From the NCBI GenBank assembly GCA_021736985.1, contig JAIPEW010000029.1:1-33340 (forward strand): DNA of 33,340 bases, given 5' to 3'. The DNA comes from Clostridiales bacterium (GTDB lineage: Bacteria > Bacillota > Desulfotomaculia > Desulfotomaculales > VENG01). Shown one piece after another: positions 8,961-32,673 of the stretch. Within the stretch, counting starts at the first letter, position 1; each line of letters starts with the position of its first letter. Position numbers and translations under genes: made by a program. The notes beneath the pieces are model-generated. The model saw only the letters and a program-made list of their open reading frames with translations. It was not told the origin of the DNA and did not search any database.

Positions 8961-9320
8961 TAGTTTCTATTTTCGTGTTAAACGCCCACGAGCCTCTGGC
9001 TCACAACGGAAAATGAAAACTTTTCTGGCGGCTGGGTAGAGGGCCGGTCCAGCACTCAGTGCGCTTTTTAAAAAATTGTGTTATAAGTAGTATATTTTTA
9101 CTTCTGTCTTTCCTGCATTAGAAATGGGCTGAGTGCTGGACGTATTTTTACTGGGAGCATTAAGTATGTTTTAGGTACCCGCTCTATGATACTACACAGC
9201 AAGTTTTTCACGCCCTTAGCAGCCGAGGTTTCGGGATTTGACGGGCTATGCAGCGCACCCAGACTCCGCTACCTTCCGGAAATCCACCGGCCCTGGCCAT
9301 AGTCTTTAGGGAGTTTTCGC
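8961..9320 (-). repeat. Dispersed modular repeat, copy A
   Basis: This is the reverse-complement orientation of the copies at 21216-21480 and 32750-33122. The 58-base module at 9243-9300 differs from copy C at only one or two positions, and the other end (AAACGCCCACGAGC near 8980) is also shared. Inside is a stem of 13 bp (9047-9059 with 9129-9141). No credible reading frame exists. It fills the gap between tetR and the exporter genes; I see no clear promoter for the exporter in it. Confidence 0.9.
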
Positions 9321-12288: not shown

Positions 12289-13482
12289 ATGAGACAGGTA
12301 TTAAACATAGCTAATTATGAAACCCGCCATGTATTTAAAGACATAGTACTATTCGGAATGGTCTTTTTAATCCCCCTGGCTTACATAGCATTTTTTAGCT
12401 GCGTTTACATAGCAGGGATTTTAACTGACATTCCACTGGGAATCGTAGACCTGGATAATTCAAAAGTAAGCCGTGAAATTACTACTACATTTAAAAACTG
12501 CCCCAAGTTTAAAACAATAGATAGTATTAATACTTACGACCAGCTGGAAAAAGCCATGAACAACGGCACGGTACGGGCAGGTATTGTAGTGCCGGAAGAT
12601 TATGCACAAAAAACATCCCACCGGCAAGATACTAAAATAATGGCAGTATACGATGCATCCAACCTGATCTGGGGATACAATATAAAAAGATATACCTCGC
12701 AGGTAATAGGAGAAATCAGGGCCAACCACACGGCCAGTTACCTGGCGGGCCAGGGGTACACGGAAAAAGAGGTAAAAAACATCATGAGCTCCATTTCAGG
12801 AAATATAGAAGTCTGGTATAACCCTACATATAATTACACAGCTTTCATACTGCCGGCACTGATAATGATGGTTCTCCACCAGATAGGACTCTTAAGCGTC
12901 TGTCTTACAGTAACGCGGGAAAAAGAAAATAACTGCTGGCTGCAGTATCTTTGTTCACCCATAGCCAGGTGGAAGATCTTTCTGGGTAAAGCACTGCCTT
13001 ATTTTATAGCTATATTTTTCAACTACGCGCTTCTTACCTGGAGTACATCTTACTTTATAGATTTAAAAATAATAGGGTCTACGGCCTTGATCGTCCTGCT
13101 GGGATTCCTGTATTCTACCTTTATTACCTCAGCCGGGTTCTTTATATCCACAAAAGTTCCCAATTCACTGCAGGCAACCAGGTACATAATGCTGCTGTCC
13201 ATACCCATGTTTATAATCTCCGGGTATACCTGGCCGGCAACCCACATACCTGGTTTTATAAACTTCCTGGCCCGCCTTTTACCCTTTACCTGGATGGCAG
13301 AAGGCTTCAGGCTGGTAACCCTTAAAGAACTCGGATTTCAATATGTAAACCATATAATACTAATACTTGCAGCCGCAGCAGCCTTATCAACAATCCTGGC
13401 CCTGCAGTTCAAAAAACGCCAGAAACCCAGAGAAAAAGGGCTCACAGTAAACTGCGGCCCCACCTACCCCGGCAATAAGTAA
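12289..13482 (+). CDS. ABC-2 type exporter permease, second subunit (YbhR/YbhS-like)
   Basis: A 397-residue paralogue of the preceding permease, with the same order of one N-terminal helix, an extracytoplasmic domain (IPLGIVDLDNSKVSREI, VVPEDYAQK) and five C-terminal helices, including the matching segment IPMFIISGYTWPATHIP. The ATG has AAGGGGG upstream. The C-terminal tail after the last helix is basic and unusual; its last residues Asn-Lys and the stop codon are contributed by the 45-bp palindrome at 13472-13516, as also happens for the transposase gene. The original C-terminus may therefore have been replaced when the palindrome arrived. Confidence 0.92.
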   Translation: MRQVLNIANYETRHVFKDIVLFGMVFLIPLAYIAFFSCVYIAGILTDIPLGIVDLDNSKVSREITTTFKNCPKFKTIDSINTYDQLEKAMNNGTVRAGIVVPEDYAQKTSHRQDTKIMAVYDASNLIWGYNIKRYTSQVIGEIRANHTASYLAGQGYTEKEVKNIMSSISGNIEVWYNPTYNYTAFILPALIMMVLHQIGLLSVCLTVTREKENNCWLQYLCSPIARWKIFLGKALPYFIAIFFNYALLTWSTSYFIDLKIIGSTALIVLLGFLYSTFITSAGFFISTKVPNSLQATRYIMLLSIPMFIISGYTWPATHIPGFINFLARLLPFTWMAEGFRLVTLKELGFQYVNHIILILAAAAALSTILALQFKKRQKPREKGLTVNCGPTYPGNK

Positions 13483-13516
13483 AAAAACGTGCCAGGCACG
13501 TTTTTTTACTTATTGC
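13472..13516. repeat. GTGCCAGGCAC-family palindrome, copy 1
   Basis: Perfect 22-bp arms (13472-13493 and 13495-13516) around a single A. The core is CGTGCCAGGCACG, flanked by A7/T7 runs and by CAATAAGTA and its complement. It contains the stop codon of the exporter permease, and its T-rich right arm could act as a terminator in both directions, between convergent genes. It matches the two palindromes flanking the transposase gene. Confidence 0.95.
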
Positions 13517-14393: not shown

Positions 14394-14438
14394 CCAATAA
14401 GTAAAAAAACGTGCCAGGCACATTTTTTTACTTATTGG
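14394..14438. repeat. GTGCCAGGCAC-family palindrome, copy 2
   Basis: Arms of 22 bp (14394-14415, 14417-14438) with one mismatch, centred on A14416. The right arm supplies the last codons (Ala-Asn-Lys region) and the TAA stop of the minus-strand transposase gene. It also lies downstream of the plus-strand 45-codon gene and may serve as terminator for both. Confidence 0.93.
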
Positions 14439-15255
14439 CTAGTTTGTAGACTGCGCTTTGAGATAGTCCTATGTGTTGTGCTATTTGTTTTAAAGTGTAG
14501 TTTTGTTTAAGTGCTTCCCGGACGTATAGTGCTTTATATTCTGCCAGGTATCGCTTCCTGGAACCGCTTTTTATTAATTCAATGTCGTCTATGCTTATTC
14601 CCGTTTCCAGCAGTATTTTGTCTAATCTTTTGCGGGGCCCGGTATACTCCGCGGCACTTACTGAAGATGCAAAATCTCTGCCGCCAATTACACTGGCAGA
14701 ACTATAATCGTTTGTTTCCTCCACTTGTACAAAATCTTTATATTCTTTGACTGCTTCATCGCGGTTGTTTGATAAAATGTCCAGGATAAAACTGCTGTCA
14801 ATAAAACTGTCTCGCTTTTGCCTGTAAAATACATCACTGCTCCAGGGGTATTCCCACACGTGTTCACATATCCCGGCCCTGATGGGATTCTGGTGTACAT
14901 ACCGGAGCAGCGTTAAAATATACCTGTCGTCCTGTACAGGTATAGCTTTATAACGCCCGCCAAAAACGTGCCCGGTGCGTTCTTTTACAACATTGTAAAA
15001 CTTACTATAAGAGTTATTTATGCAGTGCATAATTTTTTGCAAAGGAATCCCCGTGGTCTGCAATACTAGATGATAATGATTTCCCATGATAACAAAACCA
15101 AATAACCTGAAATTCATATCTATTTTGTAGTCAATTAACTTTTTAAGAAAATAACGCTTTTCACCGTCGTATTTAAAGATATATTCCCTGTTATTCCCGC
15201 GCTGTATTACATGATATATGGCCCCTTCATACTCAACCCGCAAACCTCTTCCCAC
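14428..15255 (-). CDS. RAYT/IS200-like Y1 transposase (REP-associated type)
   Basis: A HUH single-strand transposase of about 275 residues. The metal-binding pair is His60-x-His62 in MGNHYHLVLQ, and the candidate catalytic tyrosine is Tyr112 in VQDDRYILTLLRYVHQNP. The N-terminus GLRVEYEGAIYHVIQRGNN is typical of the group. Unlike minimal IS200 proteins it has a C-terminal extension ending in an HTH (YTLKQIAQHIGLSQSAVYKL). I choose the GTG at 15255 (MGRGLR..., AAGGG upstream) over a GTG nine codons earlier. It is bounded by palindromes at 14394-14438 and 15298-15342, the expected substrate type for RAYTs. Confidence 0.9.
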   Translation of the reverse strand: MGRGLRVEYEGAIYHVIQRGNNREYIFKYDGEKRYFLKKLIDYKIDMNFRLFGFVIMGNHYHLVLQTTGIPLQKIMHCINNSYSKFYNVVKERTGHVFGGRYKAIPVQDDRYILTLLRYVHQNPIRAGICEHVWEYPWSSDVFYRQKRDSFIDSSFILDILSNNRDEAVKEYKDFVQVEETNDYSSASVIGGRDFASSVSAAEYTGPRKRLDKILLETGISIDDIELIKSGSRKRYLAEYKALYVREALKQNYTLKQIAQHIGLSQSAVYKLANK

Positions 15256-15297
15256 ACAGGCACCCTTGTTAAATATTACCACAGGCCATGTACAAGT

Positions 15298-15342
15298 TCA
15301 ATAAGTAAAAATTTGTGCCTGGCACATTTTTTTACTTATTGA
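15298..15342. repeat. GTGCCAGGCAC-family palindrome, copy 3
   Basis: Arms 15298-15319 and 15321-15342 match at 20 of 22 positions around T15320. It lies upstream of the transposase start and is the most diverged of the three copies. Confidence 0.92.
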
Positions 15343-20055: not shown

Positions 20056-21167
20056 GATGCGAACATGTAAGACATTTAATACCGGAGTGGCTTGACGGCG
20101 AGCTTGATGCCGGAGAGTCCCGGGAAATAAAAAATCATATAGACAAGTGTACTTCCTGCCGCAAAGAAGCAGATTTCTGGGAAAGTGTGGGCACTTCGCT
20201 GCGAGAAGAAGCAGTGGGTATAAAAGCACCTGCCGGGTTTGCACAGGATGTTGCAGCGCAGCTGGCAGAAGGGCCCGGCAGAAAATCCGCAGGGTTCTTA
20301 TCCGGCTGGAAACGCAGCATAGCTGCAGCAGCTGCATTTATGCTGGTAGCAGCAGGGTCGCTCGGCGCGTTTTTAAACTGGGAAGACAATACCGGCTCGA
20401 ACGTAGCACAGAACAATGATAAGCCAGCTATCCATTCTCCGGATAAAAACAACGGCCAGGGACTTAATATCCCGCAAATGAACTCGCAAGATAAAGACGA
20501 TGAAGACATTGTCATAAATAATAATGAATCCCAGGATCAAGATCCCGGCGAGGCAGAAAACCAGCAAAACACGCAGCCGGAAGAAAACACCGGCAGCAAT
20601 AAAGACAGCACCGGCACAGAAGGCAGCAATCCGGGCGATACAAGTGATCCTGATAAACCAGGCGATGGAGAAGATGCAAAGGACAGCAGCAGCAGCGATA
20701 ATGATAATGATGATGTAGAAGAAACCAATCAAGCTGAACGCGTGCTGCTGAGCACTGATAAAGATAGGATCAGTGAGCGTACCCTTGTCAGGGTAAAAGT
20801 AGAAGATATAGCTGCAGCACATGAAAAAGCCGTGGATTACATTAAAAACAGCGGGGCCCGGTTCGAAATGATCACCAAAGAAAACAGCCAGGAAACTATA
20901 AAAATAACTGCAGGAACTGAAGAACTGCTGGGTAACCTAAAAGAGCTGGGACAGGTAACAAGCACCGATCGCCAGGAAGACGATATTACCGGCGAGTACA
21001 ACAACAAGGTAGAACAATACCGCACCCTGGATGCAGAAATAGAAAGTATAGATGACCCGGATGAAAAAGAAGCAATACAAGTTAAAATGAACACTATAAT
21101 GGACCAGCTGGAAAAATGGAAACAGCAAACAACAACTAGAATAATAGTACTCTGGATGCAGGATTAA
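20052..21167 (+). CDS. Membrane-bound zinc-finger (ZAS) anti-sigma factor
   Basis: A 371-residue partner of the ECF factor. The N-terminal cytoplasmic anti-sigma domain begins MRCEHVRHLIPEWLDGELDA and has the zinc motif His29-x3-Cys33-x2-Cys36. One membrane helix lies at about 89-108. Outside, an acidic, Asn/Asp/Ser/Gly-rich low-complexity linker (about 115-225) leads to a C-terminal domain of about 135 residues with an alpha/beta part and a coiled coil (NKVEQYRTLDAEIESIDDP). That domain resembles DUF4349-type sensor regions and may detect envelope stress or surface-layer state. Overlap with sigma (4 bp) and the terminator at 21172-21207 define a two-gene operon. Confidence 0.88.
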   Translation: MRCEHVRHLIPEWLDGELDAGESREIKNHIDKCTSCRKEADFWESVGTSLREEAVGIKAPAGFAQDVAAQLAEGPGRKSAGFLSGWKRSIAAAAAFMLVAAGSLGAFLNWEDNTGSNVAQNNDKPAIHSPDKNNGQGLNIPQMNSQDKDDEDIVINNNESQDQDPGEAENQQNTQPEENTGSNKDSTGTEGSNPGDTSDPDKPGDGEDAKDSSSSDNDNDDVEETNQAERVLLSTDKDRISERTLVRVKVEDIAAAHEKAVDYIKNSGARFEMITKENSQETIKITAGTEELLGNLKELGQVTSTDRQEDDITGEYNNKVEQYRTLDAEIESIDDPDEKEAIQVKMNTIMDQLEKWKQQTTTRIIVLWMQD

Positions 21168-21171
21168 GATA

Positions 21172-21207
21172 AAAAAAGCGGAGAGTTAAACTCTCCGCTT
21201 TTTTTTA
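21172..21207 (+). terminator. Terminator of the sigma/anti-sigma operon
   Basis: Stem AGCGGAGAGT/ACTCTCCGCT extended by A/T pairs (21172-21186 with 21190-21204), loop TAA, followed by T residues. It begins five bases after the stop codon. Confidence 0.92.
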
Positions 21208-21215
21208 TCTTAAAT

Positions 21216-21480
21216 CAGAAAACTACTTAAAAACTACGGCCAGGGCCGGTGGATTTCCGGAAGGTAGCGGAGTCTGGGTGCGCTGCATAGCCCGTCATTT
21301 GCGAAGTGTGATGTGGGAGGTGGGAAATGTGACAATTTGAGAAGTCTGCTTCGTAGACTTTTTCTTTTTCCCACCTCTAATTTCCCATTTCTCACCGCTA
21401 CCATTGTACCGGCCCTCCACCCAACTGTTAGAAGAGTTTTCATCCTCTGTTGTGAGCCCCGGGCTCGTGGGCGTTTAAGC
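21216..21480 (+). repeat. Dispersed modular repeat, copy B (different interior)
   Basis: The left module (21237-21297, beginning GGCCAGGGCCGGTGG) and the right module (about 21410-21476, ending GGGCTCGTGGGCGTTTAA) match copies A and C. The interior (about 21298-21408) is unrelated to theirs and has its own hairpins: AAGTCT/AGACTT around a CTTCG-like loop, and GAGGTGGGAAA/TTTCCCACCTC-type arms. Weak reading frames across it lack ribosome binding sites. It separates the sigma operon and the protease gene, which converge. Confidence 0.88.
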
Positions 21481-29051: not shown

Positions 29052-29557
29052 GTGAAAGAAATATATATTGACAGGCATAAATGCCTGCACTGCTTTTCCT
29101 GTATACTCAACTGTATCCTGGCCCGTTCAGGCAAATGCAGTTTGCAGGAAGCTGCTGCTGATCCCCCGGCACCCAGGCCCCGCATATTGAAAGTTCAAGA
29201 TGATAATAATTCTTTTTTACTCATGTGCAGGCACTGTGAAAATCCCCCGTGCATAGAAGCCTGCATGTCAGGCGCAATAACCAGGGAACCTTCTACAGGA
29301 ATAATTAGCATAGATACCGATAAATGCATGGGATGCTGGATGTGCATAATGGTTTGCCCGTTTGGAGTAATCGGCAGGGATAAAGAAAGTAAAACAGCTG
29401 TAAAATGCGACCACTGCAGGGACAGGGAATACCCGGCAGCGTTGAGGCTTATCCTACCGGCGCGCTTTCTTTTAAAGAATCTGCAGAACATGCCGGTGGA
29501 AAAAGAAAAGACTATGCCCTACAGATGACAGGCGTTGAAAGAAGGGATACAAAATGA
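29052..29557 (+). pseudogene. CooF-like polyferredoxin, frameshifted near 29439
   Basis: The frame starting at GTG 29052 (AAGGTGA upstream) encodes a 4Fe-4S electron carrier with Cys groups CLHCFSCILNC, CRHCENPPCIEAC and CMGCWMCIMVCP, then KCDHCRDREYPA. After that point (about 29438) the frame gives nonsense ending at 29528. Shifting by one base from 29441 restores VEAYPTGALSFKESAEHAG... and ends with a TGA that overlaps the next gene's ATG in ATGA (29554-29557). One base is missing where a Cys codon is expected, and the next expected Cys (VEACP) reads Tyr (TAT), so the fourth cluster is damaged twice. The family carries electrons between an enzyme and a partner oxidoreductase. Confidence 0.85.
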
Positions 29558-30620
29558 AATATGCAGTCATAGGAAGCAGCGCAGCTGGTATTTTTGGAGT
29601 TGAAGCACTTCGTCAAGCAGACCGGGAAGGGGATATCATAATAATTTCCGGGGAAAAGGAACCTGCATATTCCCGCTGTTTAACTACTTACTATATTGCA
29701 GGCAGTACTACCGAGAAAAACATGTATATCCGCCCGGGTGATTTTTTTGAAAAAAATAATGTTGATGTACACCCCGGCACTACTGTCGAAAGCATAGACC
29801 CTGTTCAGAAAAAAATATATTGCAGCGGCCCCCGAGGCTATTAATAGCCTCGGGGGCCGCTGCCTACATGCCGGATATACCCGGGGGTAGTGCCGGGGGA
29901 GTATATACACTGCGCACCATGCAAGATGCCAGGGCTATAAAGGAAAAAGCTGAAAGAGGGAAGCAAGCTGTTGTGCTGGGTGCAGGACCCGTAAGCGTGA
30001 AAACTGCCTACGCTCTTCTAAAAAATGACATGGAAGTATCAGCGGTAGTTGGTTCGCCCTGTATATTATCCAGGGTTATGGATAAATACGGCGCTGAATT
30101 AATACAAAACCATTTAGAAAAACACGGCATGAAGTTTTACCTGGAAAAACAAGTACAGGAAATAACCCAAGACAGCCAGGGCAATGTCAGCGGGATAAAA
30201 CTGGATGACAATACTGTACTGCCCTGTTCCATGATAATTATAGGCAAAGGTGTGCAGCCCAACGCTGCAGCCCAGGGGAAGATGGCCGGGCACAACATGG
30301 CAGGATACCAGGAACCATACCCTGGCTCAATAAGCCTTAATGCGCTGGAGTTTTTCGGCCTGGATGCTGTAACAGCAGGCGTTTCCAATCCTCAATCAAG
30401 TGAATATGAAATACTGGAAAACAAAGATAAATACAGCGGCAAATACCGGCGCCTGGTGTTTAGCGGTGATACACTTGCTGGTTATGCTGCTGTAAATGAC
30501 ATAGACGGCATAGGAGCATTAACAGCGCGCATCCTGAACAACACACCTGTAAAGGATAAATATGCCCTGCTGCACGGGCGCCCACCTATTTTGGGCAGCA
30601 CAGCTTACCATGTAGGATAA
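29554..30620 (+). pseudogene. FAD/NAD(P)-dependent oxidoreductase (FNOR/NADH oxidase-like), split by a palindrome
   Basis: The first part (29554-29844) has the FAD-binding start YAVIGSSAAGIFGVEALRQA and SRCLTTYYIAGS, and stops at TAA inside the palindrome 29822-29863. The second part continues in another frame from about 29838 with LLIASGAAAYMPDIPGG, the NAD-binding VVLGAGPVSVKTAYALL, GKGVQPNAAA and an intact C-terminus to 30620. Together they make one pyridine nucleotide-disulfide oxidoreductase fold of about 355 residues. Pairing with a CooF-like ferredoxin recalls the CooF-FNOR pairs near CO dehydrogenase, but no cooS is present in the window. A TTG at 29820 could start the second part, but there is no ribosome binding site. 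Confidence 0.85.
29822..29863. repeat. Perfect 42-bp palindrome inside the oxidoreductase gene
   Basis: Arms of 21 bp (29822-29842, 29843-29863) with no spacer. The right arm encodes the expected conserved residues LLIASGAAA; the left arm is its inverted copy and stands where some 8-10 family residues should be. It changes frame and brings a TAA at its centre. Confidence 0.95.
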
Positions 30621-32532: not shown

Positions 32533-32673
32533 TTATAGACTAAGTGCCTTGCACTTTTTCTCTATATGCTGCATTGCCAGTTCAGCAGCTTTATTTAGAT
32601 CTTCTTCAACTGCAAAGGATGCACCTATTATATCTTCAGCATCCTCGGTTAACAACCCGGCCCCACTTCTCAC
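32533..32673 (-). pseudogene. C-terminal gene remnant, 46 codons
   Basis: On the minus strand a frame ends ...GLLTEDAEDIIGASFAVE then EDLNKAAELAMQHIEKKC and KALSL with TAA at 32533. The sequence has coding character (charged amphipathic helices) but cannot be assigned to a family. At its upstream side (about 32660-32700) it runs into DNA resembling the repeat-linked segment near 7968-7995, so the 5' part of the gene appears to be lost. A GTG at 32673 could start a short product. Confidence 0.35.

Follow-up and report, generated by a model that had tools for sequence, protein, structure and literature searches.

How does a perfect palindrome of 42 bp come to lie within the coding sequence of a conserved oxidoreductase? 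The window studied here, a stretch of 33,340 nt, is all of contig C39 of a draft genome (2.84 Mb in 65 contigs), and the locus lies toward its right end in a gene for an FAD-dependent NAD(P) oxidoreductase (FNOR). Two open reading frames, 29554-29844 and 29820-30620, together represent one Pyr_redox_2 protein, the first its N-terminal and the second its C-terminal part. The features at the palindrome are as follows.

29554 to 29844, forward strand: FNOR pseudogene, N-terminal piece, ending at a stop codon at 29842-29844
29835 to 30620, forward strand: FNOR pseudogene, C-terminal piece, in a different frame, with 53 codons missing at 30263/30264
29822 to 29863, no strand assigned: perfect, spacer-free 42-bp palindrome, with arms at 29822-29842 and 29843-29863
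29835 to 29850, forward strand: 16-bp palindromic core, AGGCTATTAATAGCCT, made of in-frame R-L-L-I-A codons plus one base and putatively native
29822 to 29834, forward strand: 13-nt left-arm extension, an inverted copy of 29851-29863 that appears to replace about 27 native nucleotides

The palindrome is a real feature and statistically unambiguous. Its left arm (GCAGCGGCCCCCGAGGCTATT) and right arm (AATAGCCTCGGGGGCCGCTGC) are exact reverse complements of 21 nt each with no spacer between them, just as the preliminary description had reported for this coding sequence. Base composition predicts about 1e-8 palindromes with arms of at least 21 nt per window, and no second perfect palindrome with a spacer of 0 and arms of at least 9 nt occurs in the 33,340 nt. 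As single-stranded DNA the segment folds at -28.6 kcal/mol, compared with -10.1 for shuffled sequences (z -9.55). It is present once in the genome, also when up to three mismatches per arm are allowed, and is therefore not an inserted repeat. Neither an exact match in the genome collection nor a copy in the relatives that were searched was found.

The two arms differ in what they encode. Translated in the downstream frame, the right arm (A-ATA-GCC-TCG-GGG-GCC-GCT-GC) gives (L)IASGAA(A), which agrees with the protein family; the earlier claim that this arm encodes a conserved stretch of the oxidoreductase is thereby confirmed, LLIASGAA sharing the reading frame of the C-terminal piece. Of the left arm, only AGG-CTA-TT at 29835-29842 agrees with the family; it codes for the conserved R-L-L. 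Between the Cys codon at 29821-29823 and the Arg codon at 29835-29837 there are 11 nt in the window, while the distance from the Cys position to RLLIA is 27 nt (9 residues) in the nearest relative, G002 (a genome of the same order with about 63% protein identity), and in most homologues, and 24 nt (8 residues) in two. The frame is disrupted by the left arm, and a TAA at 29842-29844 closes the upstream open reading frame. The preliminary description had called the left arm an exact inverted copy in place of native codons, and this holds for the replaced codons, the frameshift and the stop (11 versus 27 nt), but not for 29835-29842, which judging from the family alignment is probably native. The length of the lost native stretch, 27 nt, is projected from the homologues; its sequence is not, the nearest relative being only about 63% identical in protein.

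RLLIA is conserved in the homologues, but G002 uses different codons for these five residues. The 16-bp core would have been native to this lineage through a coincidence of codon choice, and the center of the palindrome falls inside these conserved codons, which are themselves palindromic. We consider the core the probable pre-existing seed of a template switch. One arm that is native and another that is templated from it and replaces native sequence is the arrangement expected of a quasipalindrome template switch, and, together with the 11 nt found where homologues have 27, it supports the earlier proposal that template switching was the cause.

Our main reading, to which we give a probability of about 0.8, is that a single short template switch of the quasipalindrome type, following the Ripley/Lovett model, occurred in a decaying electron-transfer gene of CO dehydrogenase. 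The model is said to have been put forward by Ripley in 1982. In the most likely polarity, the strand under synthesis was the minus strand, growing from right to left; it would have folded back at the 16-bp R-L-L-I-A core and used its own right arm as template for 13 nt. It would then have rejoined the parental strand, at the Cys codon or close to it, where there is a GC match of at least 2 nt, and skipped the native stretch. The product would be the perfect 42-bp palindrome with a net loss of about 16 nt, and it is this loss that would account for the change of frame and the stop at 29842-29844. Alternatively, the plus strand could have made a first jump primed by GC and returned at the core. 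Because such a plus-strand switch yields the same product, the copied strand can only be inferred, as can the single event and its order relative to the other lesions of the gene.

An identical end product would come from another repair route, for instance one in which a double-strand break capped by a hairpin is processed, or from a series of at least two changes, and the event cannot be dated. Successive changes would have to supply 13 further exact pairs, for which the probability given an 8-nt core is about 1.8e-8, and hairpin-capped breaks usually yield longer inverted copies, which counts against the repair route. We regard this group of explanations as very improbable.

The mutation class itself is well known, and no new mechanism is implied. 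Quasipalindrome template switching is established in Escherichia coli through work of the Lovett laboratory, with the thyA hotspot and the lacZ QP reporters as systems (PMC7202029). As in those systems, an imperfect inverted repeat would here have been made perfect by a switch of the nascent strand, with a frameshift as the outcome. In contrast to them, the present case is found in nature, within a pseudogene; its new arm, at 21 nt, is long, and the net loss of about 16 nt of native sequence apparently belongs to the same event. Template switching has also been reported to make new hairpins in one step (PMC8794818), and a long perfect stem made in one step is what we propose for this locus. 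Those cases concern rRNA genes in which the structure is selected, whereas the host here is a pseudogene of a protein, and nothing points to selection on the hairpin.

The preliminary description had added that a perfect palindrome of this kind is normally unstable. At 42 bp this is not supported, as the same window has others in intergenic DNA, 63, 45 and 35 bp in length, whose perfect arms enclose a single spacer nucleotide. We sampled the window and seven other stretches of the genome (two of them overlapping), about 166 kb of distinct sequence. The sampled stretches contain further palindromes, among them two without a spacer, of 28 and 32 bp, and no other perfect palindrome with arms of at least 11 nt and a spacer of 0-3 nt was found within open reading frames of at least 120 codons in the 166 kb. 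Palindromes this long are not exceptional outside genes in this genome, and only the location in a coding sequence, that of a pseudogene, is unusual. It is conceivable, though quite unlikely, that this organism allows snap-back switching, or perfect palindromes, to an unusual degree, for example through weak hairpin-nuclease activity. If so, palindromes would accumulate wherever selection is relaxed, and the near-perfect palindromes with 0-1 nt spacers in the window would be among them.

Several of the other palindromes have a context of their own. Positions 1-185 hold nine arrayed copies of a 15-bp unit (GGTTTCCACGGGGAC), after which comes a near-perfect palindrome of 63 bp with the unit inside its arms. 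Three near-identical palindromes of the form CAATAAGTAAAAAAACGTGCC N GGCACGTTTTTTTACTTATTG lie at 13472-13516, 14394-14438 and 15298-15342, with about 25 sites in the genome, and two of the three flank an IS200-like Y1 transposase gene (14428-15282, reverse strand); they resemble REP-like elements accompanied by their transposase. The palindrome at 21171-21205, which directly follows a gene that ends at 21167, consists of two perfect arms of 17 nt around a single nucleotide, has A/T tracts and is probably a bidirectional terminator.

A strong hairpin such as that at 29822-29863 might also be a selected element, that is, a transcription terminator, a protein-binding site or an inserted palindromic mobile unit, and a family of dispersed palindromes does exist in the genome, next to a Y1 transposase gene. 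The palindrome in FNOR is unique in the genome, however; it is unrelated in sequence to the Y1-associated family, it is not followed by a T run, and its right arm is plain conserved coding sequence. An Rfam search of the window gave no match. We find this the least credible of the explanations, and a mobile, repeated or REP-like palindrome at 29822-29863, which should occur in several copies, is rejected since there is one copy in the genome.

The template switch has to be read against the state of the surrounding genes, for which three more features are needed.

29052 to 29528, forward strand: pseudogene of a CooF-like 4Fe-4S ferredoxin, upstream of FNOR, whose frame is lost near 29443 and in which Tyr replaces a Cys that is a cluster ligand
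32536 to 32655, reverse strand: cooS (Ni-CO dehydrogenase) remnant, nothing but the final 40 codons, with 63% identity to the CooS of G002
32688 (or, in the wider delimitation, 32662) to 33123, also 8970 to 9318 and 21210 to 21478, no strand assigned: dispersed repeat that the genome matches about 65 times, in whole or in part

The cooS remnant matches the CO_DH_cata model and the G002 protein, and the gene is convergent to cooF and FNOR. In G002 the cooF-FNOR pair is intact, and in its vicinity are a convergent cooS and also a cooC; these two were named by eye from the translation, and cooS is supported by the match of the remnant in the window. No relative closer than G002 was found in the genome samples of the class and the phylum, and the search for related loci returned none. 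Gene clusters that combine CO dehydrogenase (CODH) with CooF and an FNOR have been described (PMC6344411). The locus resembles them in that a CooF-like ferredoxin adjoins FNOR, with cooS present in the nearest relative and as a remnant here, so that the arrangement of a relic cluster is found in the form of broken genes. It differs from them in that cooF, FNOR and cooS are all broken, and intact frames and motifs, as would mark a functional cluster, were not found. A second, full-length CODH gene is retained on another contig of the genome (C46).

Compared with G002, FNOR also carries an in-frame loss of 53 codons at 30263/30264, and the missing segment includes FAAGD, one of the motifs of FAD-binding oxidoreductases. 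Because the ends of this segment in G002 are a 9-nt direct repeat (GGCCCAATG), the loss is as expected of a slippage deletion, which would have occurred about 400 bp from the site of the template switch. Several independent lesions have turned the whole cooF-FNOR-cooS cluster into pseudogenes. The preliminary description had implied an oddity in an otherwise functional conserved gene, which does not stand in view of the frameshift and the lost Cys in cooF, the deletion in FNOR and a cooS of 40 codons. Differences from G002 in the FNOR pieces fall at third codon positions in 59/101, 88/161 and 70/128 cases, and those in cooF are likewise concentrated there. This excess indicates that selection kept both genes over much of the period after the two lineages diverged, up to a fairly recent time in the case of FNOR, and that decay came later.

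The dispersed repeat starts just past the broken end of the cooS remnant. Several of its copies sit at contig ends, for which reason it is probably the cause of assembly breaks.

The palindrome could instead be an artefact of amplification, library preparation or assembly, an in vitro snap-back that entered the consensus and is absent from the organism; the hairpin mechanism operates in vitro too, and the genome is a draft of 65 contigs. Against this, both flanks are colinear with G002 in the correct order and orientation, while a typical fold-back chimera or palindromic misjoin would continue into an inverted copy of the flank. The lack of a second palindrome within an open reading frame in the sampled sequence also speaks against it, and a rare error is not expected to pick a gene already broken by unrelated lesions. 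On the same contig the genes for an RND transporter (ACR_tran 4-1015 of 1036), Mbl, CNNM, SpoIID, SpoIIID and an MFS protein are complete, and the sequence quality is therefore not generally poor. SpoIID, SpoIIID and Mbl also suggest a spore-forming member of the Bacillota. As the lesions are confined to the CODH cluster and its neighbours are intact, we favour a real mutation tolerated under relaxed selection, and consider an artefact unlikely.

The mutation would have persisted because the cluster of cooF, FNOR and cooS had lost or was losing its function, and prior or concurrent loss of gene function would explain how so odd a change could come to stand in a conserved domain. On this reading of the sequence, the locus would preserve, from nature, a one-step switch by which a bacterial gene acquired a perfect palindrome of 42 bp, and the seed, the copied segment and the likely point of return can still be read in it.
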